Origin: Neolewinella litorea
GTDB taxonomy: Bacteria; Bacteroidota; Bacteroidia; Chitinophagales; Saprospiraceae
Direction of reading: 5' to 3'
NCBI RefSeq assembly: GCF_004803465.1
Contig: NZ_SRSF01000010.1
Coordinates: 1-59,045 of the forward strand
Length of the DNA stretch: 59,045 nt
A program made the translations under genes and the position numbers. The notes below the pieces were generated by a model that saw only the letters and a program-made list of their open reading frames with translations, was not told the origin of the DNA and did not search any database. Shown piece by piece: positions 1 through 10,438 of the stretch (position 1 is its first letter; the number at the start of each line of letters is the position of its first letter).

Positions 1-229
1 TGGCGTCGCCGGTAATCCCCTCCTGCGGCGGTGAGCACCGCAGATTGATAAATCCGTCGCGACCTACTACCGCTGGCTCCGGTTGCGGACTGTCTCGCCG
101 CCGCCGCCGGCGGCGCCAGTAGTGAAAGGTGGCGTAGCTGATACCTTCCGTGGTACAGAAGTCTTTGATGGTCTTTCCCGAAGTCGCTTGCCGGTCCAGC
201 AGGGCGTACATGCGGCTGGCTTTGTCCAT
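1..229 (-). CDS. IS66-family accessory protein TnpA-like, partial (runs off left edge)
   Basis: Reading leftward from an ATG at 229 the frame stays open to the window edge and starts MDKASRMYALLDRQ, followed by a helix-turn-helix-like stretch (GKTIKDFCTTEGISYATFHYW) and a basic arginine run. This layout, with an acidic or polar N-terminus, a KDFC..EGIS..TFHYW motif and then basic residues, is typical of the small DNA-binding accessory proteins encoded upstream of IS66-type transposases. The rest of the element would lie outside the window. It sits beside another transposase fragment at 264-428, so this edge looks like an insertion-sequence graveyard bordering the cassette array. Family assignment is from motif memory, not from a search. 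Confidence 0.6.
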   Translation of the reverse strand, partial: MDKASRMYALLDRQATSGKTIKDFCTTEGISYATFHYWRRRRRRRDSPQPEPAVVGRDGFINLRCSPPQEGITGDA

Positions 230-263
230 GGTTGCTGTTTCCAGCAAAGGTCAGGCCGACCAA

Positions 264-428
264 TCAGCAGAGAAAGACGCGGTTGCTCGGACGCTTACCC
301 TTCTTCCACTTGTAGAAGGTCGCGGCGCTGATCTGGTGCTGTCGGCACAGATCGGCTACGGGAGTGCCGGCGTCGGCCTGGGCCAGGATCTCGAGCCGCT
401 GGGTGGGGGTGAACTTGCTTTTTCGCAT
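264..428 (-). pseudogene. Transposase OrfA-type helix-turn-helix fragment, 54 aa
   Basis: The short frame begins MRKSKFTPTQRLEIL and continues with a classic transposase HTH (VADLCRQHQISAATFYKWKK), as in IS3-type OrfA proteins. Full OrfA proteins are about 90-110 residues and continue with a coiled coil after the FYKWK motif. Here the frame turns into unrelated residues (GKRPSNRVFLC) and stops, so it is most likely truncated by a rearrangement. A 9-bp inverted repeat (434-442 and 478-486) lies just upstream and might be part of an element end, but this is weak. The fragment is 326 bp left of the last recognisable attC site, so insertion sequences may have cut the end of the cassette array. 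Confidence 0.6.
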
Positions 429-504
429 GGTGAAACCACTTTGGGAAGATGAACTAATTTAGGGTCAGTTCTACTAAAAAGTGGTTGCGGGGAGGGGGAA
501 GCGT

Positions 505-700
505 ACAATAGCTTTTTCCGGTCCTGCGGGCTCAGAGTGCGCGGCAGCTTTTCTGTGGCTGGGGGTGAGGTAGTTTGCGGTAGCTTTTTCTATTCCTGCG
601 GGCTCAGCAGTGCGCGGTAGCTTTTCTCTGGCGTGCGGCGGGGTAGCTCGCGGCAGCTTTTTCCGGTCCTGCGGGCTCAGTGACGCGCGGTAGCTTTTGT
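505..700. repeat. Degenerate tandem repeat, about 72 bp period, three copies
   Basis: A block starting with AGCTTTTTCCGGTCCTGCGG occurs at 510, in diverged form at 582, and again at 655. Each copy is followed by a GTGCGCGG(C/T)AGCTTTT block. The minus-strand frame through it would encode repeats of EPAG.EKA and REKLPR, but composition and context do not support a real protein. The block lies between the transposase remnants and the last attC site. No other gene is visible from 429 to 754. Confidence 0.6.
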
Positions 701-754
701 CAGCCCCAGCGTTGGACTGATTGTCGGTTGATTCTGTGTCGGTTCTGGCATTTC

Positions 755-964
755 CGCCAACGGGTGCGCCCACGCAGCCGGGGCACCGATAAGTTAAAGG
801 TAAAAACTCTAACCCCACCCACGAGGGCGCGGCGCGGCGGCATGGACCGAAACCGACCACCGTGAGCTTTCGGACCATTGACGACGGGACGAACCCGGGC
901 ACTGTTAGCACTAACCAGCACATCAGCTACCCAGCCCCGGTTGACGTTGGGCGCGGTGTTGGGC
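755..964 (-). other. attC-like recombination site 5 (long type, 210 bp)
   Basis: The outer arms are CGCCAAC (755-761) and GTTGGGC (958-964). Inner arms GCGCCCA (766-772) and TGGGCGC pair perfectly, separated from the outer arms by unpaired spacers GGGT and GGT. A further pair, CCGGGGC and GCCCCGG, extends the stem. The interior is about 80 percent identical by eye to the site at 2807-3017, including a near-palindrome ATGGACCGAAA / TTTCGGACCAT. It follows the gene at 1095-1757. At 210 bp it is longer than the usual 57-141 bp range of described attC sites. Confidence 0.8.
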
Positions 965-1094
965 GAATTTCTTTTTCCACTTTGGATTGCTACTATTGCA
1001 TCTCCACTGCCATTCACTCTACCGCATCATTTCGTCCCACTAGGCACCTTACAATATGGAGCTCGCTAGAGATGGTAATTAATTTAAAGGGAGT

Positions 1095-1757
1095 CTATCT
1101 CATCCATCCTTCTACAATAAAATTTTTCGCGATGATTAATGAATCCTTACCACCTTTATCTGACCGAAACAGAAGTTCAAACCTTGCCCCGTACTTATCA
1201 CCCCAGGATCCTTCATAGATCGTAAATTCTTTGGCGTAAAGGATTGTGTCACTATGAGATACTACCATCTTGGTGTCCTCAAGGATTGATTGACTAGATA
1301 GCCGTTCGTTAGTTTGAATATCGAACACCTTGAGATGTAACTCTCCTTCCTGATAAGGTTTGAAATTAGTGGTATAGTAGTATATGCCAGGCTGGAATGA
1401 GTTAACTAGTTGCAGCTGTACGCCCTCCTCATTCGCGAAAGCAGGAAAGGAGTCAATAGGTTCGTAGATATCAATCCCCTCCGGGATTTCTTTGTGTGCA
1501 CCATAGTAGTCAGGAGTAGCGAACGTCAATATAAATGATACAAGTACAAATAATCCAACTGCCATACATAGACTTAAACCTATTGCTAGCAACTTTCTCT
1601 TTGGTGATCTGAGAGCAATTATAAAACTGAGCACTGCATTTATCAAAAACAACCACAATGCTACGTCAATCATCCAGTCATACCTGAACCCAGCTCCAAG
1701 AATGAAGACTAGAATTGGAACTGCGTATACTGTGATTGCGATTCTGTATCTGCTCAT
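1095..1757 (-). CDS. Cassette 5 gene: membrane protein of unknown function, 220 aa
   Basis: I do not recognise a family. The first 90 residues hold three hydrophobic segments (about 8-25, 29-48 and 54-80), consistent with three membrane helices. The remaining 130 residues are polar, rich in aromatic and acidic residues, and probably form one extracytoplasmic domain (DYYGAHKEIPEGIDIYEPID onward). The gene is AT-rich, starts with ATG and ends 131 bp before the attC site at 755-964, so it is the sole gene of cassette 5. Cassette genes are typically of unknown function and independently acquired, which fits. Expression would have to come from a cassette-internal or upstream integron promoter; none was identified. 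Confidence 0.75.
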   Translation of the reverse strand: MSRYRIAITVYAVPILVFILGAGFRYDWMIDVALWLFLINAVLSFIIALRSPKRKLLAIGLSLCMAVGLFVLVSFILTFATPDYYGAHKEIPEGIDIYEPIDSFPAFANEEGVQLQLVNSFQPGIYYYTTNFKPYQEGELHLKVFDIQTNERLSSQSILEDTKMVVSHSDTILYAKEFTIYEGSWGDKYGARFELLFRSDKGGKDSLIIAKNFIVEGWMR

Positions 1758-1872
1758 ACTTAATTATCCCTCTTCTCTTCGATCCGCTTCTATCTATATC
1801 GACGGTGCTTGAAGTTTACTGCTTACGCTCGGGGAGCGTGATTATTTGTTTAAGGGTTTGTGGTAAATGTAG

Positions 1873-1894
1873 TGACCGCCTCTGATGGCGGTCA
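1873..1894. other. Perfect hairpin just inside the start of cassette 5
   Basis: TGACCGCC (1873-1880), a 6-base loop and GGCGGTCA (1887-1894) form an 8-bp perfect stem. It begins 11 bases inside the leading end of cassette 5 (crossover at 1904/1905). It is not followed by a T-run in either direction. It could act as a transcript-stabilising or insulating structure at the cassette 5' end, but this is inference. Cassette 4 carries a weaker stem (TGCCG...CGGCA) at the equivalent position. Confidence 0.5.
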
Positions 1895-1898
1895 TTTC

Positions 1899-1964
1899 GC
1901 CCAACGATTACATCTGCGCCGTGCGTCCCGATAGGGCGCATGGACATCAGATGTGGTGTTGGGC
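1899..1964 (-). other. attC-like recombination site 4 (short type, 66 bp)
   Basis: This is the clearest attC of the array. The outer arms are GCCCAAC (1899-1905) and GTTGGGC (1958-1964), extending to 10 paired bases (TTCGCCCAAC / GTTGGGCGAA). The inner arms ACATCTG (1910-1916) and CAGATGT pair perfectly, with unpaired central spacers GATT and GGT. The core contains a GTCCC/GGGCGC-type stem. This arrangement R - spacer - L - loop - L - spacer - R with GTTRRRY/RYYYAAC cores is the diagnostic architecture of integron attC sites. The stop codon of the gene at 1971-2687 lies 7 bp outside it. Confidence 0.9.
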
Positions 1965-1970
1965 GAATAT

Positions 1971-2687
1971 TCATCTGATAATTTGGTAGGTGCCAGATTG
2001 TAGCTTCACATACTCTCTTCCATTTGACTTGAAATAATTCCACAGTGGCTCATCAAATATGTGATCTAAATTTAGGCCTTCGCGTGTAGCATCTAAAGTA
2101 AATAGTTTGTTGTTTCCCATATTTGGAATGTACAACATCCCTTCATCATCTATCCACAAAGATTCTGGATATGCTAAAAATTTATTGCTTTGCGAATCAG
2201 TATCCTGCCATTCAAATTGACCATAAGTATCTTCGACTACAGAAGTTGATAAATTTATTCTTGCAATCGTATGGCCAGTAGGAAATGTTAACCACAAATG
2301 GTCAGGGTTTTCTATTTTTATATCGTAACATGTGTGTCCATTACTGAAATGGATAGGGATTTTATCTATTAATTTTCCGTTGCTATCAAACTTGAATACA
2401 TCCCACTCCTGATAGAAATGCAAATATAAAAAACCATCAGAACTTCGCTGAATTGAAAAATGCTCAAGCCCAACCGAAAAAAGCTTTTGCATTTCAGTGT
2501 AGCTCGGACCAACTAAATCAATCAGTAATTCGTGTGCTTCTATTTCTGTTATGCCATTATCACTGTTTAATACAAATATTTTGGTAATTTCATTGTAATT
2601 GCCATACGTACAAACGCAATATACATCTGATTCTTTTTTGTGGACTACAGATAAGCTATCTAAGCCCACAATCTTTTCTAATTTCAC
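1971..2687 (-). CDS. Cassette 4 gene: predicted beta-propeller-like protein of unknown function, 238 aa
   Basis: There is no signal peptide; the start MKLEKIVGLDSLSVVHKKES suggests a cytoplasmic protein, or a truncated version of a longer secreted one. The sequence has recurring short strands and turns with patterns such as DGFLYLHF, NPDHLWLTF and DDEGMLYIPN followed by NNKLFTLD. These resemble NHL or 6-bladed propeller repeats (6-bladed propeller proteins are common in Bacteroidota), covering perhaps four blades. No catalytic motif is evident. The gene is AT-rich, fills cassette 4, and its stop codon almost touches the attC at 1899-1964. Function unknown. Confidence 0.75.
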   Translation of the reverse strand: MKLEKIVGLDSLSVVHKKESDVYCVCTYGNYNEITKIFVLNSDNGITEIEAHELLIDLVGPSYTEMQKLFSVGLEHFSIQRSSDGFLYLHFYQEWDVFKFDSNGKLIDKIPIHFSNGHTCYDIKIENPDHLWLTFPTGHTIARINLSTSVVEDTYGQFEWQDTDSQSNKFLAYPESLWIDDEGMLYIPNMGNNKLFTLDATREGLNLDHIFDEPLWNYFKSNGREYVKLQSGTYQIIR

Positions 2688-2806
2688 AATCCATTGGTTT
2701 TGTCCAAGTAAAGGAGACTGACCTTGACCAGGATATTTAATGTACTTCTAGGTCTCTAGATGGACTAGCATGTGTTGTTATGTGCCGGCCTAAATGTCGG
2801 CATTTC

Positions 2807-3017
2807 GCCCAACGAATGCGCCCACGCAGCCGGGGCTCCAATTGCTCGAAGGTATCAATTTTGACTCCACCCACGAGGGGGCGGCGCGGCGGCATGGACC
2901 GAAACCGACCGCAGGGAGCTTTCGGTCCATTGACGACGCGACGAACCCGGGTGCCACAAGCACGCACCAGTACTAAACTTACCCCAGCCCCGGTTGACGC
3001 TGGGCGCGGTGTTAGGC
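2807..3017 (-). other. attC-like recombination site 3 (long type, 211 bp)
   Basis: The outer arms are GCCCAAC (2807-2813) and GTTAGGC (3011-3017). The inner arms GCGCCCA and TGGGCGC pair perfectly with spacers GAAT and GGT. AGCCCCGG near 2980 pairs with CCGGGGCT near 2830, and an internal perfect 11-bp hairpin ATGGACCGAAA / TTTCGGTCCAT lies in the centre. It closely resembles the site at 755-964, so the two define a long subfamily, distinct from the three short sites. It follows the cassette 3 gene. Confidence 0.85.
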
Positions 3018-3103
3018 ACAGTATTTTTTTCTATAAATATCCACATTCGTTTGTAGACTTCAGCAATAAATTATTAATGATTTTTATATAAATTAATAAG
3101 GAA

Positions 3104-3640
3104 CTAAATTTTACGTTTGGTATAATATGGTGTGATTTCATTTAGAAGAGATTCAATCTCATTAGGAGAATAGTATCCAAATTTTGGATGCCATCCAAAC
3201 CCAAAATTACTTGGAGTTATAAATGCAGGTATCCTTCCGTTCTCTGTAATGATAATAAGACCTATAGTATAGTTATTAACCCCATTTTGTTTTTTATATT
3301 CAAGATCTAAATCGATCAATTTGTCTTCAGGAAATTTATGTGAAACATCAATTATATATATTGATTTGACAGTAGTATTCGTGTCAATAATTTTATACCA
3401 GTACTTTGATGAGTCATTCTCAAACTCTATAGCCTCCTCAAGCGCAAAAACTTTGCAATAGTCTATTTCGTCATATTGTGACCTAGCCCCTTCAGGTAAT
3501 TCAGTACGACATTCCAACTTATAAGTAGCGGTCTGAGTATTGAAATAAAACGCATTAATGTCCCAAACTATCTTTACGCAATTTCCAATCAGACAACGTA
3601 ATAATGCAACCTGATCTACATTAACTCGTAAATCGATCAT
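3104..3640 (-). CDS. Cassette 3 gene: hypothetical protein, 178 aa
   Basis: I do not recognise this protein. It begins MIDLRVNVDQVALLRCLIGN, has no signal peptide or membrane helix, and is AT-rich. It contains charged and aromatic segments (FENDSSKYWYKIIDTNTTV) and a C-terminal region rich in glycine and aromatics (NFGFGWHPKFGYYSPNEIES). The overall look is of a small cytoplasmic protein, perhaps of the immunity or defence-associated type often carried in cassettes, but there is no direct evidence for that. It stops 87 bp before the attC at 2807-3017. About 355 bp of its cassette upstream of the start carry no obvious gene. Confidence 0.7.
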   Translation of the reverse strand: MIDLRVNVDQVALLRCLIGNCVKIVWDINAFYFNTQTATYKLECRTELPEGARSQYDEIDYCKVFALEEAIEFENDSSKYWYKIIDTNTTVKSIYIIDVSHKFPEDKLIDLDLEYKKQNGVNNYTIGLIIITENGRIPAFITPSNFGFGWHPKFGYYSPNEIESLLNEITPYYTKRKI

Positions 3641-3995
3641 TTGGTTTTACTTTAATTTGAATTAGACTATGTTTTTAGTTTTGGCAGCCAGAATAATTAT
3701 CATTCTTACCAAGTCTGGATTTCCCGCTACATTTGCATCACTCAAAGTAGTTATTCGCAATCATTCCAGCACGTATTAGAGGTCCAACTTGAATCCAGTT
3801 AAACTAGCCAGCGGTTTTACAAATAAAACGATCTTTTTTCCATCGCGCTAGTCCTTTTTTGAATTTTGTTGTCTGCCAACGATCCGATATTACAGACTAG
3901 TAAGACTGCCGAGATCGATTTTCTCTGTATGAACATCGAGCACAAAATTACTTGACTTCGCAATACGGAGTTTTGATAACTGTTTCAGTGATTGT
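3641..3995. other. Noncoding leader of cassette 3, no gene seen
   Basis: This AT-rich stretch lies between the cassette 3 leading end (crossover at 4001/4002) and the ATG at 3640. No convincing frame exists on either strand. It may hold a cassette promoter or the eroded remains of a second gene, but I see no specific element. It is unusually long for a cassette leader, which in classic integrons is normally a few tens of bases. Confidence 0.5.
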
Positions 3996-4059
3996 GCCTA
4001 ACGTTTAGTACATGCGGCGTGCGACGTCAGGAGCATGACCGTTATGTACATTGTTATCG
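3996..4059 (-). other. attC-like recombination site 2 (short type, 64 bp)
   Basis: The outer arms are GCCTAAC (3996-4002) and GTTATCG (4053-4059). The inner arms GTACAT and ATGTAC pair perfectly with spacers GTTTA and ATT. The core (GCGGCGTGC...GGAGCATGACC) matches the pattern of the sites at 4546-4615 and 1899-1964, placing it in the short subfamily. The cassette-derived arm GTTATCGGTA (4053-4062) is the exact complement of the leading end of cassette 2 at 4544-4553. Confidence 0.88.
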
Positions 4060-4068
4060 GTATACCTT

Positions 4069-4533
4069 TTACTTTTCTACTTTAATTTTGTTTTTTTCAA
4101 GTATTCTAATTTGATAGGGGATAATTTGAATCTTTTTTAGACCTAAATGTCCAAATCCTAATTCTTCCTCTGTGTTTTCAATAATACCAATTATTTCTAA
4201 TTTAAGCGAATATTTCCAATAATTTTCATACAAATGCGAGAACTTTTTGCTTAAATTTACATTTAGACGTTCTTGGTAATTTTCTTCCGTATTCAAATAT
4301 ACTTGATAGTCCAATTCGCACGGTGTTTTAGATGTTAAGCTCCAGTACTCTTCAACTCCCGTATAGTATGCGATTGTTGAGATGTATTCTCCTGATTCTA
4401 TTCGATATAATTCGCAAAAATCAGTCAATTCAAGTTCCGGTGGTCCATCATAGGGTTTAATTATATAAGTCTTTGAACAGCTCTGAAAAGCGATTAAACT
4501 TAACAATACTCCAATAATTTGTAGGTTATCCAT
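4069..4533 (-). CDS. Cassette 2 gene: small lipoprotein of unknown function, 154 aa
   Basis: The N-terminus MDNLQIIGVLLSLIAFQSC is a lipoprotein signal with the lipid-attachment cysteine at residue 19, followed by SKTYIIKPYDGPPELELTDF. The mature part is about 135 residues, rich in acidic and aromatic residues, with no recognised domain. It would be anchored to the inner or outer membrane facing the periplasm. The gene is AT-rich, begins with ATG 13 bp inside the cassette boundary and ends 10 bp before its attC. This compact packing is typical of integron cassettes. Confidence 0.75.
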   Translation of the reverse strand: MDNLQIIGVLLSLIAFQSCSKTYIIKPYDGPPELELTDFCELYRIESGEYISTIAYYTGVEEYWSLTSKTPCELDYQVYLNTEENYQERLNVNLSKKFSHLYENYWKYSLKLEIIGIIENTEEELGFGHLGLKKIQIIPYQIRILEKNKIKVEK

Positions 4534-4545
4534 TTCTTCTGGTTA

Positions 4546-4615
4546 CCGATAACGGTTGGTGTATGTGGCGTGCCGACCGAATGGGAGGCATGAACATCAT
4601 ACACATTGTTCTGCG
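4546..4615 (-). other. attC-like recombination site 1 (short type, 70 bp)
   Basis: The outer arms are CCGATAAC (4546-4553) and GTTCTGCG (4608-4615). The inner arms GTGTATG (4559-4565) and CATACAC (4598-4604) pair perfectly with spacers GGTTG and ATT. The core TGGCGTGCCGAC...GGAGGCATGAACAT matches the short subfamily. The arm GTTCTGCGT (4608-4616) is the exact complement of the leading end of cassette 1 at 5353-5361. The two outer arms pair only through the AAC/GTT core because they derive from two different cassettes, as expected in a linear array. Confidence 0.9.
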
Positions 4616-4622
4616 TTCGTTT

Positions 4623-4877
4623 TTATTTTTTCAATTTCTTCCAATCAGGTTTACCTTGTTTCCTGTACTTTTCAATTGCATCATTCCAAAAATCAATCAT
4701 TCCACTATCTGCAGGTCGTTTTATTCCTGTTCCATTCCAATCCATAGGTTCAGAAGCACTTAGTATATCACTAACATCAAATGTGTTTTCTGATAATTCA
4801 TAATGTTCTTGCAAGAAGTAGAACATTACCCAAAATGCATCTTCTGATGTTAAATCCTCATTTTTGAATTCAGCCAT
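4623..4877 (-). CDS. Cassette 1 second gene: small acidic protein, 84 aa
   Basis: The protein MAEFKNEDLTSEDAFWVMFY has no signal peptide. It reads as a compact alpha-helical protein with a pattern EDAFWVMFYFL-x-LS-x-DW-x-FW-x-AIEKYRKQ, reminiscent of small immunity-like proteins with a buried aromatic core. I cannot name a family with certainty. Its start overlaps the end of the upstream gene (4870-5328) by 8 bp, so the two are translationally coupled and were acquired together as one cassette. Two-gene cassettes are often toxin-antitoxin or effector-immunity pairs; here that is only a suggestion from the layout. Confidence 0.7.
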   Translation of the reverse strand: MAEFKNEDLTSEDAFWVMFYFLQEHYELSENTFDVSDILSASEPMDWNGTGIKRPADSGMIDFWNDAIEKYRKQGKPDWKKLKK

Positions 4878-5328
4878 TTTTATTTTTCAAGTAATTTAAA
4901 AGGTTAATCAAATGTTGTTGAGTGTGACTATAAAACATTAGTTCAAAAAACCACCAAGCATCATTTTCACTATTATTTTCACTTCTCCACTTAATTTCCA
5001 ACAAGTCATAAATTATATCTGATAAATCATCAATTGCATCTCCGGTCCCTGTTTCAGGTTGTTTGAGTATTTCTTCTAAATTTAGAATTGAGTGATACCA
5101 ACCGAAATCTTTAAAATTGCTTTTTACACTTTCAATTACATTTGGATAAATTTTCTTCTTGTTGAAATCTTCGTATTCATTTTCATCAAATACATAATCT
5201 ATTTGGAAGTATTTAGAGTATAATTTAACAAGGTTTATTTCTAAATCTTTTTCCTTATCCTCAATTTCAATATTAGGATTTAAACCATATTTGATAATTT
5301 CATTTATTATTTCGATTAACTCTTCCAC
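4870..5328 (-). CDS. Cassette 1 first gene: DUF5063-like protein, 152 aa
   Basis: The start is a GTG at 5328; the protein begins MEELIEIINEIIKYGLNPNI. The C-terminal half, with GDAIDDLSDIIYDLLEIKW followed by ENDAWWFFELMFYSHTQQHLINLLNYL, matches my memory of the DUF5063 family, which ends in a D.L.DIY.DL motif, an aromatic stretch and an H..HL..L helix. It is cytoplasmic and acidic with no known reaction. It is the gene nearest the recombinase, so it would be the most strongly expressed if the integron has a promoter reading into the array. It overlaps the next gene by 8 bp. Confidence 0.7.
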   Translation of the reverse strand: MEELIEIINEIIKYGLNPNIEIEDKEKDLEINLVKLYSKYFQIDYVFDENEYEDFNKKKIYPNVIESVKSNFKDFGWYHSILNLEEILKQPETGTGDAIDDLSDIIYDLLEIKWRSENNSENDAWWFFELMFYSHTQQHLINLLNYLKNKNG

Positions 5329-5353
5329 TTTTGGTTTCTTTTATTCTTAATGA

Positions 5354-5505
5354 CGCAGAACATTAATACACCCGCATTGCACTTGCGCACGCAATGGCGG
5401 TGAAATTATTGACGGGTGTGCGCCACCCGCCCGCCAATAATACGTAATGTCCCGGGGTTGCGGGGGGCGGAATTGACGGGTGTGCGCGGGTTGACGGGTG
5501 TGCGC
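5354..5505 (-). other. attI-like primary recombination site with three direct repeats
   Basis: CGCAGAAC at 5354-5361 (GTTCTGCG on the cassette strand) is the junction where cassette 1 begins. An inverted L-type box ACACCCG (5368-5374 region) sits beyond a short spacer, with a CATTGC...GCAATG hairpin inside. On the recombinase side lie three copies of TTGACGGGTGTGCGC at 5409-5423, 5473-5487 and 5491-5505; the last two are 18 bp apart. No second outer arm (RYYYAAC) is present, so this is not a complete attC. Known attI sites combine one simple crossover box with extra direct repeats bound by the integrase, and this layout fits that model. Confidence 0.7.
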
Positions 5506-5588
5506 ACCTGGCAACCCCGCCGCGCCACCCCCCGCAGCGCCTCCATTACAACGTTCTGGCCGTCTCTAGCCTATACCCCATCCCGCCT

Positions 5589-6779
5589 TTAAGGGTTTTC
5601 CTCCCCCCCGCCCCCGTCGGTTAGCCGGTCGAGCGGACTGATGATGCGCTGCCGCTCCTTACTGGAGATGTGGGTATAGATTTCGGTGGTCCGACTGCTG
5701 TTGTGACCCAGCAATTCCTGGATGTGGCGCAGACTCGTCCCCTGCTCCAACAAGTGGGTGGCGTAGCTGTGGCGCAGGGTGTGTACCGTGGCGTGAGGAT
5801 TTACCCCGCTCCGCTTCACCGCCCGCTTGAGGATGGCCTGTACGCTGCGGGGGGAATACTGTCCCCCGTGCTGCCCCTCGAACAGCCAGTAGTCCGGTTG
5901 GTAAGCTTCCACGTACCGGTTCAGTTCGGCTATCAGCGATTGCGGCAGCGTGGTATACCTGTCCTTGTTTCCCTTGCCGCTGCGGATGTAGATCTGCAAG
6001 CGGTCCACGTGTATATCCGCCAGCCGCAATCGGCACACTTCCCCCAGCCGCAATCCGCCGCCGTAAATCACCTTTAATATGCACCTATGCTTCGGATTCT
6101 CCACGGCGGCGAACAGCCGGCTCACCTCCTGGGTGCTCAGCACCTGGGGCAGCTTGTGCTCCTTCCGGGGTCGCAGTTCAATAAAGGTCTTCTCCCGCCC
6201 CTCAATGTGCTCCATCCAGAATTTCAGGGAATTCAACAGCTGGTGCTGACTACTGGAAGAATACCCACCCGCGCCCGAGCGCCGCAGGATATACTGCTTC
6301 ACCGTTTCAGTGGTCACGTCCCCTGGCTCCAGATTCGCGCATGCCCGGAAGAAACCGCGCAGGTGCGCCATATATCCCTTCACCGTCCTCCACGAGTACC
6401 GCTGCACGCGCAAGGCTTCCTCCGTTCGCAGGAGCCGTTCCTGCCACCGCGCCGGCAGCGTCCTGGTTTCTCCTTCAGAACCACCTTCCCCCCGCCGCTT
6501 AGCCCTATCCGGCGCTTCCACTAGCGTATACGTCCATTCCAGTCGATCCCGTCCCACTGCATCACTTAATCCCCGAAGAGTTGCCGCGACCGCGGGTGCC
6601 GACCAATACCGTTGTTCCATATGATACCTCACGCCCGCAATGTGCCCGCAAGCCGCCGGGAAGTTTTCAATGTATCCCTTCGGCCGAAATACGTAGCGCG
6701 TCCCCGTTCGCCCCACCACCTTCTGAATTAAGACCATATTTCCCATCGTTTTGCTCCAAAGGAAACCGGTCCACCGCAA
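5589..6779 (-). CDS. Tyrosine recombinase, candidate integron integrase lacking the IntI insertion, 396 aa
   Basis: The catalytic set of a tyrosine recombinase is complete: Arg244 (GGGLRLGEV), Lys269 (GKGNKDR), His333 and Arg336 (HTLRHSYAT), His359 (LLGHNSS) and Tyr368 (EIYTH). A SAM-like core-binding domain spans about 105-200. The N-terminal 90 residues (containing QRYWSAP) form an extra domain seen in many Bacteroidota recombinases. The C-terminus ends SPLDRL, like the SPLDAL of IntI1. Between KDR and HTLRH there are only about 60 residues, as in XerD, whereas IntI proteins carry about 40 more including their diagnostic extra helix. The gene reads toward and in the same direction as the cassettes. 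The start could instead be Met12 (6746). It most likely acts on the attI/attC sites beside it, but it could be an unrelated recombinase. Confidence 0.85.
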   Translation of the reverse strand: MRWTGFLWSKTMGNMVLIQKVVGRTGTRYVFRPKGYIENFPAACGHIAGVRYHMEQRYWSAPAVAATLRGLSDAVGRDRLEWTYTLVEAPDRAKRRGEGGSEGETRTLPARWQERLLRTEEALRVQRYSWRTVKGYMAHLRGFFRACANLEPGDVTTETVKQYILRRSGAGGYSSSSQHQLLNSLKFWMEHIEGREKTFIELRPRKEHKLPQVLSTQEVSRLFAAVENPKHRCILKVIYGGGLRLGEVCRLRLADIHVDRLQIYIRSGKGNKDRYTTLPQSLIAELNRYVEAYQPDYWLFEGQHGGQYSPRSVQAILKRAVKRSGVNPHATVHTLRHSYATHLLEQGTSLRHIQELLGHNSSRTTEIYTHISSKERQRIISPLDRLTDGGGGEENP

Positions 6780-7027
6780 ACCATCCGTTTTTATCCGTAT
6801 ATAATCGAATATATGCGTTTACATACGGCTCCGCCTCCCATGCGTCGCAGCCTTCCGCAACCCGGCATCCATATACCCTGATCGTGGGACGAACCCATGC
6901 CTGAATATAAAGTATGTACCCAAACCCATGGGCCTTCGTCCCTTCCCCGGCACCCGCGCCCCGCCGCCCGAATAAGACCGGACACAGAAACCAGGCGCTA
7001 TTGCCCCCCAACCCCTACCTTCCCCTA

Positions 7028-7260
7028 CCCGAGCGAAGCAAGGGACAAAAGTCGTACCCCGAAACGCCCCTACCCGAGCGAAGCAAGGGATAGGATGCCA
7101 CCCAGTAACGCCCCCACCCGAGCGAAGCGAGGGACAAATGCCACACCCCATTCACTCCTTCACCCATTCACTCCTTCACCCCTTGACTCACCCGAGCAAA
7201 GCGAGGGGCAAATGTCACACCCCATTCACTCCTTCACCCATTCACTCCTTCACCCCTTGA
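7028..7260. repeat. CCCGAGCGAAGC repeats and a duplicated 51-bp unit
   Basis: CCCGAGC(G/A)AAGC(A/G)AGGG occurs four times, starting at 7028, 7073, 7117 and 7191. A 51-bp block beginning AAATG(C/T)CACACCCCATTC is present twice, at 7136-7186 and 7210-7260, with one mismatch seen. An open frame runs through from 6897 but has low-complexity, non-protein-like composition. From 6780 to 7027 I see nothing else. The second 51-bp copy overlaps the likely TTG start of the next gene. Confidence 0.75.
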
Positions 7261-8180
7261 TTTCCATAGCCCAAATAGGCCTAGGCGACATAGCCCAAAA
7301 AGCCTACCTACCCCTCCTGGCCACCCGCGCCGACGTAGAACCTTGGCTCTGTACCCGGGACACGGCGGTGCTGGAGCAGTTGTCGCGGCAGTACCGGATC
7401 GCGAACACCTTCCCCAGTGTCCGGGAAGTCATCGCGCGGCGGCCCGACGCCGCTATGGTGCACAGTGCTACGGAGAGTCACGCCGACATCGTCGGGGCGC
7501 TGCTGGACGGGGGGATACCGGTGTTCGTGGACAAGCCCCTTTCCTACTCCCTCATTGAATCGGATCGCTTACTCCAATTGGCGGCCCAACGCGGCGTCCC
7601 CCTCATGGTGGGCTTCAACCGGCGGTATGCCCCGCTGGTCAGCGCCCTGCGGCGGCAAACCAACCCGTTACAGGTAACCTGGCACAAGAACCGGGTGGAC
7701 CTGCCGGGTGAGGTGCGGACTTTCGTCTTCGACGACTTCATCCACGTAGTCGACGGGCTCCGCTTCCTCGCCCCCGGACCGGTGGAAGACCTCAACGTAC
7801 ACGCCCGGCTACGCGACGGACGCCTCACCAACCTGCAAGTCCGCTGGCGCACCGGCGAAACCCTCCTCACCGGCGGTATGAATCGGGTGAGCGGCCGCAC
7901 GTCTGAAACGATCGACTACCACACCCCGGGGCAACAGTGCACCCTCCACGACCTCCACTCCGGCGTCCACTACCGCGCCGCAGAGCGCACCGACCTCTCC
8001 TTTAACCACTGGACGCCCACCCTGGAAAAGCGCGGCTTCGTGGCCATGATCGACGACTGGCTGGAGGTCGTCCGCCGCGGCAACCACGATGCCCCGCGCG
8101 CGGCAGACATTCGGGCTACCCACGCGCTCTGCGAAACCATTGTAGAACGTATTGAATTGGGTGATACAATGGGTAGGTAG
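7257..8180 (+). CDS. Gfo/Idh/MocA-family oxidoreductase, 307 aa
   Basis: The protein opens with a nucleotide-binding Rossmann fold (IAQIGLGDIAQKAYLPLL) and continues with the family's VDKPLSYS motif, in which the lysine belongs to the EKP-like catalytic motif, and GFNRRYAP. It probably uses NAD(P) to oxidise or reduce a sugar or inositol derivative; the substrate cannot be told. At about 307 residues it is slightly short for the family (330-380). I place the start at a TTG (7257) because the upstream in-frame region back to an ATG at 6897 consists of DNA repeats; an unusual start codon inside a repeat makes this uncertain. It has no signal peptide, unlike the relative at 46594-47694, and stands alone. 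Confidence 0.8.
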   Translation: MISIAQIGLGDIAQKAYLPLLATRADVEPWLCTRDTAVLEQLSRQYRIANTFPSVREVIARRPDAAMVHSATESHADIVGALLDGGIPVFVDKPLSYSLIESDRLLQLAAQRGVPLMVGFNRRYAPLVSALRRQTNPLQVTWHKNRVDLPGEVRTFVFDDFIHVVDGLRFLAPGPVEDLNVHARLRDGRLTNLQVRWRTGETLLTGGMNRVSGRTSETIDYHTPGQQCTLHDLHSGVHYRAAERTDLSFNHWTPTLEKRGFVAMIDDWLEVVRRGNHDAPRAADIRATHALCETIVERIELGDTMGR

Positions 8181-8263
8181 CGGCTGGCGTCGGCACGCTT
8201 CGTATGGCCTTCGATTTACCACGGATGACCACCAATTTTGTCTTACGGATTTACCTAAATACT

Positions 8264-8446
8264 GCCCACGCGGCGCGTGGGCGATCCGACGTGCGGAGCA
8301 CATCTCCCAAAAATCCGCGCCCGAATCCGCGTGATCTGCGGTGAAAAAAACGAAAGCTTCCGAAGGAAGCGAAGCTCAGAGTTCCATGCTTTACACGCTT
8401 CGCGTGCGGGGTTTTTACCGCAGAGGTACGCAGAGGGGTTTCACAG
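8264..8446. repeat. Dispersed repeat, copy A (about 183 bp)
   Basis: This block is repeated at 8742-8947 with small differences. It contains a CCCACGCGGCGCGTGGG palindrome, an AAATCCGCG(CCC) element, TGATCTGCGGTGAAAAAAACG, a GAAGCTTCC-type segment and ACCGCAGAGGTACGCAGAGG. The last motif resembles short intergenic repeats often seen in Bacteroidota genomes. The gap from 8181 to 9130 holds no gene that I can support. Confidence 0.8.
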
Positions 8447-8741
8447 AGATGCACAGATTCTCCACGGTGAATACCAAATAGCAGGAAGGTCGCCCTTACA
8501 GCCGGCCGGATGCCGGGCCGCGGCAGGGCGTATAAAAATACACACTGTATGAGCCGGGACGGAGTCGTGTGGTGTAACGAAACACTATTCGGATCCCCGG
8601 CAATGAGGCCTTACCTGGGAACGTGCGAGTTTGTGGATTTTAGCCCTGACGTGGTTTGGCAGCCGATCAAGCCGGATGTAGAGGCTTGATTTTTTGTTTC
8701 TTTTTTATCAAGAAAAAAGAAAAAGCACCAGAGCATCAAAT

Positions 8742-8947
8742 GCCCACACGGCGCGTGGGCGGTCCGGGGTGAGCAGCACATAACCAAAAAATCCGCGCCC
8801 AAATCCGCGCCCAAATCCGCGCCCAAATCCGCGTGATCTGCGGTGAAAAAAACGAAAGCTTCCGAAGGAAGCGAAGCTCAGAGTTTCATGCTTTACACGC
8901 TTCGCGTGCGGGTTTTTTTACCGCAGAGGTACGCAGAGGGGTTTCAC
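8742..8947. repeat. Dispersed repeat, copy B with internal 12-bp tandem units
   Basis: This is a direct copy of 8264-8446, enlarged by a 12-bp tandem expansion: AAATCCGCGCCC is repeated three times plus a partial unit (about 8790-8836). Copy A has a single unit and a variant. A symmetrical T-run/A-run hairpin (8697-8722) lies just before it and may be a bidirectional terminator. Confidence 0.8.
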
Positions 8948-9130
8948 CGAGGCACACAGACTTTGCCAATGCGTCGCGGGGGCAGCCCCGGGCCACCCGG
9001 AACTTTCACTCGCCGAGTGAAAGTCAGCAATAGACAGGAGAACCCCACGGAAAACACTCTGTGATACCTCTGTGATGCACTCTGAGTACTCTGTGGTAAC
9101 CTACCTAAAAACATCTTCAAAAACCAAAAA

Positions 9131-9163
9131 ACGGGTGCCGGCTGTAACACAGCCGGCACCCGT
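9131..9163 (-). terminator. Rho-independent terminator of the 9185-10093 gene
   Basis: A 14-bp perfect stem, ACGGGTGCCGGCTG (9131-9144) and its complement (9150-9163), has a 5-base loop. Read on the minus strand it is followed by a T-rich run (TTTTTTGGTTTTT), and it lies 21 bp past the stop codon. Confidence 0.9.
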
Positions 9164-9184
9164 CCGAAGCAAAAACAGGCGTCT

Positions 9185-10093
9185 CTACTCGAAGCCGATC
9201 TCCTCCAGCGCGGCGTGGCTGATCTCAATAGCCTCCAGGGGGGTCTCGTCGAAGGTCATGTCCTGCTCCACCAGGTAGAACTCCATGCCGGACTGGTCCT
9301 TCGCCGCCAGAATGCGATCGAAGTCGATCGATCCGGTGCCTACGGGAGCAAAGCGGCCCTGATCGTCGATGTCCTTCACGTGCCAGGCCTTGAAGCGGCC
9401 GGGGTACTTGTTGAAGTAGTCGACGGGGTCGGCGCCGGCCTTGGTGACCCAGTAAAGGTCCATCTGGAAGTTCAGGTGCTCGGGGTTGCTGTGCTCGATG
9501 AAGTAGTCGATGGGGATGATGCCTTCGTTATTGGCCACGAACTCGAAGTCGTGGTTGTGGTAGAGGGTCTGCATCCCCTGGGCCGCGGCTTTGGCGGCGA
9601 TCTCGTTGATGATGTCGGAAGCTTCGGCCACCGTGCCGCTCATCCCGAGGGTACGCGTCGCGGGGTCAAATTTGAAGCGACCTTCCGGCGGAACCGGAAT
9701 GACGAAGTACTGGAACCCGGCCTCCTTGGCGGCGGCAATCATCTCGTCGGCGTTCTCTCGGGTGACGTCGCCGTGGTGGCTGCTCATGGGTTTCAGGCCC
9801 ACTTCGGCGAGGTAATTCTTGAATTCCGTTGGTGTCATGCCGTAGAACTTGCCATCGCTGTAGCCGGCCGCCTCGATGTAGGCGTAGCCCAGATCAGCTA
9901 CTTCCTGCAATACGGCTTTCGGGTCCTGGGACATGGTATCCCGCAGGGTGTAGAGCGCGAGTCCGCCGAATGCATTTGCGGATTCAGGTACCGCCGTGGC
10001 ACTGCTGGAGTCGGCCCCCTCCCGGGTGCCGCCGCACGAAATCAGGCCAAACAGGAGGACAAACCCCAGTAAAAAGGAGATGGAACGGAACAT
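9185..10093 (-). CDS. Secreted sugar phosphate isomerase/epimerase-like TIM barrel lipoprotein, 302 aa
   Basis: The N-terminus MFRSISFLLGFVLLFGLISC is a lipoprotein signal with cysteine 20 as the anchor. From about residue 44 (LALYTLRDTMSQDPKAVLQE) the protein follows the xylose isomerase-like TIM barrel (AP endonuclease 2 family). It shows GYAYIEAAGY, MSSHHGD, TLYHNHDFEF, FQMDLYWVTKAGADP, WHVKD and the final glutamate in YLVEQD; the His, Asp and Glu residues are the usual metal ligands. Such secreted versions are common in Bacteroidota carbohydrate loci and probably act on a sugar outside the cytoplasm; the substrate is unknown. It is a single-gene unit with its own terminator. Confidence 0.85.
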   Translation of the reverse strand: MFRSISFLLGFVLLFGLISCGGTREGADSSSATAVPESANAFGGLALYTLRDTMSQDPKAVLQEVADLGYAYIEAAGYSDGKFYGMTPTEFKNYLAEVGLKPMSSHHGDVTRENADEMIAAAKEAGFQYFVIPVPPEGRFKFDPATRTLGMSGTVAEASDIINEIAAKAAAQGMQTLYHNHDFEFVANNEGIIPIDYFIEHSNPEHLNFQMDLYWVTKAGADPVDYFNKYPGRFKAWHVKDIDDQGRFAPVGTGSIDFDRILAAKDQSGMEFYLVEQDMTFDETPLEAIEISHAALEEIGFE

Positions 10094-10229
10094 AGCGGGT
10101 AAATTTTGTACAAGGATACCACATTCGGTGGTGGTGACCCAATCATTTTGTGGGGAATGTGGTGGGTCTGGTAGTTGGTATTTCGAGATAAGCGCTATTC
10201 GATCCCCGGGTAGTCGGGCCTGCGTCTCC

Positions 10230-10438
10230 CGGGTAGTCGGGCCTGTGGCCCGACCGATAAATGACCGACGAGCGGACAGCTACAATTATCCACTATACAG
10301 ACGTGAAGCTGATGCGCACCCCAGAGAGAATTGCCGGGTAGTCGGGCCTATGGCCCGACCGATAAATGACCGACGAGCGGGCAGCTACAACTATCCACGA
10401 TTAACATAAATCTGATGCGCACCCCAGGGAGAATTGCC
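10230..10438. repeat. Two-copy tandem repeat, 105-bp period
   Basis: The block CGGGTAGTCGGGCCTGTGGC... starts at 10230 and again at 10335 with few changes. Each contains the palindrome TCGGGCC(TAT/TGT)GGCCCGA and ends near CGCACCCCAG(A/G)GAGAATTGC. An extra partial start is at about 10206. The rest of 10094-10552 shows no gene. Confidence 0.85.

Follow-up and report, generated by a model that had tools for sequence, protein, structure and literature searches.

A cassette array in Neolewinella litorea predicted to be run by a tyrosine recombinase that lacks the IntI insertion

In canonical integrons (those with IntI, including class 1 of R388 and chromosomal integrons), attI lies beside the integrase gene, the cassettes are co-oriented and the attC sites form hairpins with the layout AACAA..CGTT. 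The 5' end of an integron cassette reads TT.., its own attC contains R'', and only the excised circle brings the two together. Here, we describe a similar array in a 59,045-nucleotide stretch of Neolewinella litorea (contig NZ_SRSF01000010.1, positions 1 to 59,045; hereafter the window), with which contig C2 of a 4.4 Mb genome begins; the nearest named proteins belong to Neolewinella/Lewinella. A tyrosine recombinase without the IntI-specific insertion adjoins the array. From its sequence, the array very probably works like an integron, with this recombinase as its predicted integrase. The window shares with canonical integrons the attI beside the integrase, the co-oriented cassettes and attC hairpins, the complementarity of R'' and R' within a cassette, a crossover placed at G|TT by comparison and an SPLD C-terminus. 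It differs from them in lacking the insertion, in the separate clade of its recombinase, and in an integrase gene that reads in the cassette direction with attI behind the stop codon.

The IntI-specific insertion serves to define and to find integrons. The extra domain is treated as the mark of IntI (PMC9668308, PMC9024848; papers are cited here from excerpts), and IntegronFinder is described as needing a profile of it (PMC9668308). A study of XerA and Xer-type simple tyrosine recombinases reports incomplete conservation of the insertion in their integron-like subgroup, yet calls it essential for integron function; insert-free members with cassette arrays are not described in the excerpt of that paper (PMC8138268). 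No account of an insert-free integrase with an array came up in our literature search. NCBIfam gives its XerA model the name 'site-specific tyrosine recombinase/integron integrase', so the kinship of Xer proteins and integrons has been half seen already. Spirochaetota integrons have IntI in reverse orientation; their integrase orientation is also unusual, but the protein is identified as IntI with the IntI-specific domain (excerpt of PMC9668308). For the Bacteroidetes, a survey gives integrases but no cassettes for 2016, and a single complete integron, that of Salinibacter ruber, for 2022 (PMC9024848).

The recombinase gene and the six cassette open reading frames (ORFs), which occupy five units, are all on the minus strand (Table 1). 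The six ORFs, taken from the list of window ORFs, have 26.4–40.4% G+C, compared with 62% in the reference region (window 9001–59045). A hairpin scan of window 1–9000 finds five attC-type AAC..GTT palindromes between the units and 8 further plus-strand candidates, mostly in the G+C-rich flanks. A preliminary description of this DNA, made from its letters alone, had claimed five AT-rich cassettes with genes in one direction, five attC-type palindromes and an attI-like end, all of which are recovered here. No family scores above its cut-off, and no immunity family matches, in a Pfam and NCBIfam scan of the six cassette ORFs.

Since R'' and the cassette 5' end meet only in the excised circle, complementarity between them should track the cassette and not the site. 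In the window, R'' and R' pair within the cassette in 4/4 adjacent attC pairs, at 4/4 letters each. Random pairs match at 4/4 letters in 0.8% of cases, and the two arms of one site do so in 4.3%. The two arms of a single attC site are often mismatched, unlike R'' and R' of one cassette. At the attI end, the 5' TTCTGCG of cassette 1 is complementary to R'' CGCAGAAC (CGCAGAA) of its own attC. Positions 1–7 are paired in the window's four pairs and position 8 never is; an outer stem was looked for in these pairs and none is evident. The complementarity of each cassette 5' end to its own R'' is as expected after excision and insertion at G|TT.

Folding was computed for single-stranded DNA of the plus strand, which is the bottom strand for the cassettes, and expressed as z against shuffles. 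Three sites fold clearly better than shuffles (attC2, z −7.09; attC3, z −4.83; attC5, z −3.19), and the attC1 fold is weak (z −1.71). The folding of all five bottom strands, proposed in the preliminary description, is therefore clear for three sites, weak for attC1 and no better than shuffles for attC4, which is weighed below. The own-cassette complementarity is stronger evidence than the folding. The recombinase would excise and insert cassettes at folded attC hairpins and at the attI behind its own stop codon, with crossover at N|TT. The folded bottom strand would be the substrate, and the cassettes would be transcribed in the direction of the integrase gene. Alternatively, the sites might act as double-stranded cores of the dif or lox kind, with the hairpins as by-products, much as the non-integron relatives XerC/D and XerA act on double-stranded DNA. 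This is improbable, since R'' and R' are free in their letters yet complementary within the cassette, a pairing that a core site would not need, and since, in each of the three short sites compared, the bottom strand folds more stably than its complement.

The attI-like region is defined by comparison with locus L034, whose recombinase is 88% identical to that of the window. Similarity between the two loci begins at the stop codon, extends for about 240 bases and stops at GTGTATTAATG|TT, past which the cassettes are unrelated. Three direct repeats of (G)CACACCCGTCAA lie within the attI-like region, upstream of the break. The crossover is predicted between 5361 (G on the minus strand) and 5360 (TT). 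An attI beside the integrase with insertion at G|TT is found through this one comparison.

The window recombinase has an N-terminal domain (about residues 15–82), a core-binding domain and a catalytic domain. The catalytic residues R244, K269/K272, H333, R336, H359 and Y368 are kept, and the protein matches PF00589 with 136.7 bits. The interval between KDR and HxLRH is 57 residues, compared with 99 in 31/31 IntI (30 loci chosen by IntI-model score and IntI1 of R388). The IntI insertion that is missing comprises about 42 residues around patch III. The same interval is 57–58 residues in 66/67 insert-free homologs (63 in the other) and 61–70 in five Xer-type proteins. TIGR02249, the NCBIfam integron integrase model, matches in two pieces flanking the gap and scores 217.5 bits, below its cut-off of 265. 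By the domain-based definition of IntI, the window recombinase is not a member. Failure of standard searches to detect the array, as the preliminary description had expected, is likely given this score and the IntI-domain profile that IntegronFinder is described as needing. The SPLD motif noted there is indeed common to the window protein and IntI; it also occurs in XerA-like proteins of candidate phyla, where no array is seen, and is therefore not integron-specific.

In the recombinase tree, the window recombinase falls outside the IntI clade. The IntI rows are separate (100/100) on a long stem, and another branch, recovered in 98% of 200 bootstrap trees, has the insert-free rows on the same side. 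The insert-free group itself is weakly supported (80/30). This placement agrees with a distinct integron whose recombinase is parallel to IntI, and fits an origin from IntI, the other option in the preliminary description, less well. A true IntI that recently lost its insertion is accordingly unlikely, even though TIGR02249 is the best NCBIfam model for the window protein (217.5 bits compared with 210.4 for XerA); among other insert-free members, the XerA model outscores TIGR02249 in 6/7.

Relatives of the recombinase are found in 88/298 genomes of the order at E≤1e-60 and in 102/198 genomes of the class at E≤1e-45, the N. litorea genome included. Counts of the cassette signature cover insert-free relatives at 88 loci, each with 1.3 kb or more of downstream DNA; ten IntI-type loci were removed beforehand, and L137 is not in the set. 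Downstream on the expected strand, 103/296 adjacent candidate pairs match at 4/4 letters, compared with 2/131 on the opposite strand and 2/268 upstream of the gene (both strands). Full chains are present in Flavobacterium enshiense (8/8), Algibacter (6/6), a Sphingobacteriales metagenome-assembled genome (5/5) and an array of Parabacteroides described below (5/5), as well as in the window. Downstream on the expected strand, a strict hairpin scan of 64 loci finds 80 sites; the other strand gives 4, as does shuffled sequence.

Pairing extends beyond the letters used for selection. Position 5 is paired in 126/131 rows (best of 500 shuffles, 81) and position 6 in 116 (54). Positions 9, 10 and 11 are paired in 97, 107 and 81 of 131, where the best of 500 shuffles gives 65, 57 and 50; the shuffles overstate significance because rows of one array are related. 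Position 8 is paired in just 3/131, mostly with C opposite A (88), and the 12 pairs from two canonical IntI loci have no dip there. In insert-free arms, unlike canonical ones, pairing runs through seven letters past AAC and position 8 is a constant mismatch. All four letter pairs are represented, so that the letters can vary while their pairing is maintained, as would be expected under selection by a recombinase that reads a folded strand.

A blind sample consisted of the first 40 genomes of the E≤1e-45 list, with the best hit of each. The KDR-to-HxLRH interval is 56–60 residues in 39 of these, and the remaining one is a fragment. Among the 26 with at least 1.3 kb downstream, the signature is present in 8 and occurs on the opposite strand in none. 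The same scan finds one perfect pair or more in 5/15 canonical IntI loci and two or more in 2/15; it misses many real arrays, and 8/26 is therefore likely a lower bound. The contig ends within 1 kb downstream in 38/98 loci and upstream in 1/98. Repeats behind the gene would cause such downstream breaks, and transposons could too.

As a separate observation, locus L072 (G044) contains five near-identical cassettes (89–95%, about 650 bases) in one array, 4385–10287 downstream of the integrase. Four of the five lie in two adjacent runs, by repeated insertion or duplication.

The window array could also be an integrase-less cluster that a canonical IntI assembled and mobilizes in trans, the Xer-like neighbour having some other function. 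The scan does find chains at the canonical IntI loci L296 and L297, the basic attC layout is the same as the canonical one, and one genome with a family member, G017, has a canonical IntI. We consider this improbable. The preliminary description had named two findings that would make the recombinase a bystander, a canonical intI elsewhere in this genome and close homologs away from such arrays, and neither is borne out. No protein of the N. litorea genome scores above the cut-off of the IntI family model, and canonical IntI is above it in 1/198 genomes of the class (84/296 in a phylum-wide draw). Close homologs lie beside such arrays: the signature is present downstream in the Neolewinella-type loci L034, L038, L040, L045 and many others, and many genera have insert-free homologs placed upstream of such arrays and oriented like them. 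The attI-like stretch is joined to the stop codon of the window's own insert-free gene, and the conserved mismatch at position 8 is not seen in the canonical pairs. The preliminary description had called the integron Bacteroidota-type; the range is wider than it had proposed and takes in an array of the kind described next.

Recombinase-associated acquired interbacterial defence (rAID) arrays of the Bacteroidales are defined by two or more co-directional genes of <41% G+C behind a recombinase, and the mechanism of their biogenesis is described as unresolved (excerpt of PMC12247911). The six ORFs of the window have this arrangement and composition. Both systems have a tyrosine recombinase upstream of co-oriented short genes and conserved intergenic motifs. 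rAID arrays carry immunity genes, whose families have no match among the window's cassettes, and their sites end in ATT, not GTT. Locus L138, on a Parabacteroides distasonis plasmid, shows the published rAID features: a recombinase, co-oriented short genes, and annotations as type VI secretion system immunity and SMI1/KNR4. Its recombinase is insert-free (58 residues) and nested in the insert-free clade, where L138 and L179 are sister to Flavobacteriaceae rows (97/93) and do not adjoin the window recombinase. The intergenic motifs of L138 are AAC..ATT sites with own-cassette matches in 5/5 by scan and 7/7 by eye. L138, L304 and L305 have cassette units in common, with edges at N|TT. One L138 cassette is on a Phocaeicola plasmid (88.7% identical, starting exactly at N|TT) and another is on a Bacteroides finegoldii plasmid (94.4%, exact edges on both sides). 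The insert-free family likely includes these gut Bacteroidales immunity-gene arrays, and it provides a likely mechanism by which rAID arrays assemble and gain immunity genes. L304 7113–7159 and L138 9723–9767 belong to the same cassette, with R'' kept and the attC interior different from AACAAGC onward.

The relatives have one or more N-terminal modules with a G-R-W..W-P pattern. Pfam HARP (PF07443) is above its cut-off of 25 in relative L089 (35.3 bits). Among 43 relatives, HARP matches 6 (E≤0.05) and DUF5710 matches 8. The AF2 model of the window protein has a pLDDT of 93.9; its Foldseek matches are to XPB (E 0.11) and, without significance, to HARP (4o66, E 0.20), and the link of this protein to HARP is no more than suggestive. 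In place of the IntI insertion, hairpin recognition might fall to this N-terminal domain, which is HARP/DUF5710-like in part of the family, or to other contacts.

The insert-free family is not limited to the genus and appears to be a Bacteroidota-wide lineage that includes rAID-like arrays. With moderate confidence, we favour a second integron superfamily beside IntI, in which insert-free integrases, present by homology in about half of the class's genomes, run Bacteroidota-wide attC arrays. rAID would be its immunity-gene branch. Hairpin recognition would fall to other parts, perhaps the HARP/DUF5710-like module and the lengthened R box with its fixed mismatch. The insertion would then be an innovation of IntI, and an integron could exist without it. 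Should insert-free relatives run attC arrays, integrons have been undercounted in a major phylum, and the family is a natural experiment on the protein needs of folded-DNA recombination.

Several observations weigh against these readings. The folding of attC4 (z −0.17) is on par with shuffles. Noise is evident on the opposite strand and upstream of the gene, with two chance pairs in each, and single pairs, such as that of the Woesearchaeota locus L195, may be chance. The signature is missing from 18/26 usable loci of the blind sample. No array is seen at the Flagellimonas plasmid homolog L137 or at candidate-phylum relatives such as L165, and some relatives probably lack one. The left edge of the shared cassette is preserved in L304, but the attC sequence diverges after AACAAGC. 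The HARP model has no match to the window protein, and the HARP link is not significant for this protein.

Table 1. Positions of the recombinase gene, attI-like region, cassettes and attC sites in the window.
Feature	Positions	Strand	Remarks
Recombinase gene	5589..6779	-	396 residues from TTG, 385 from internal ATG
attI-like region	5361..5588	-	Behind recombinase stop codon; shared with L034 up to TT
Cassette 1	4553..5360	-	Two ORFs, 4870-5328 and 4623-4877
attC5, attC of cassette 1 (AAC to GTT)	4551..4610	-	Hairpin scan, R boxes
Cassette 2	4002..4552	-	ORF 4069-4533
attC4, attC of cassette 2	4000..4055	-	Arms and R boxes only
Cassette 3	2813..4001	-	ORF 3104-3640
attC3, attC of cassette 3	2811..3013	-	Long type, 203 nt; hairpin scan, R boxes
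Cassette 4	1905..2812	-	ORF 1971-2687
attC2, attC of cassette 4	1903..1960	-	Hairpin scan, R boxes
Cassette 5	761..1904	-	ORF 1095-1757
attC1, attC of cassette 5	759..960	-	Long type, 202 nt; hairpin scan, R boxes

At the cassette 5 attC, R' GTTGGCGGA begins one more cassette, which extends in the direction of the contig end. Contig C18 of the same genome (3.1 kb; L310, G000:C18:1-3141) contains a long attC that is 85% identical to attC1. It has three attC sites joined by two perfect own-cassette matches, as well as a stretch resembling window 480–755. From the similar attC and the linked sites, the array likely continues on C18, and the assembly is likely broken at repeats. Window 480–755, behind attC1, contains repeated units around GCGGTAGCTTTTTC..CCTGCGGGCTCAG and is perhaps a gene-less cassette. 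A short ORF at window 264–428 (minus strand), past the last attC and close to where the contig starts, is taken to resemble the helix-turn-helix part of an IS3-type transposase. Repeats are also present in G+C-rich intergenic DNA at window 7020–7260 and 8260–8940, as CCCGAGCGAAGC.. units and as a stretch of about 200 bases that occurs twice.

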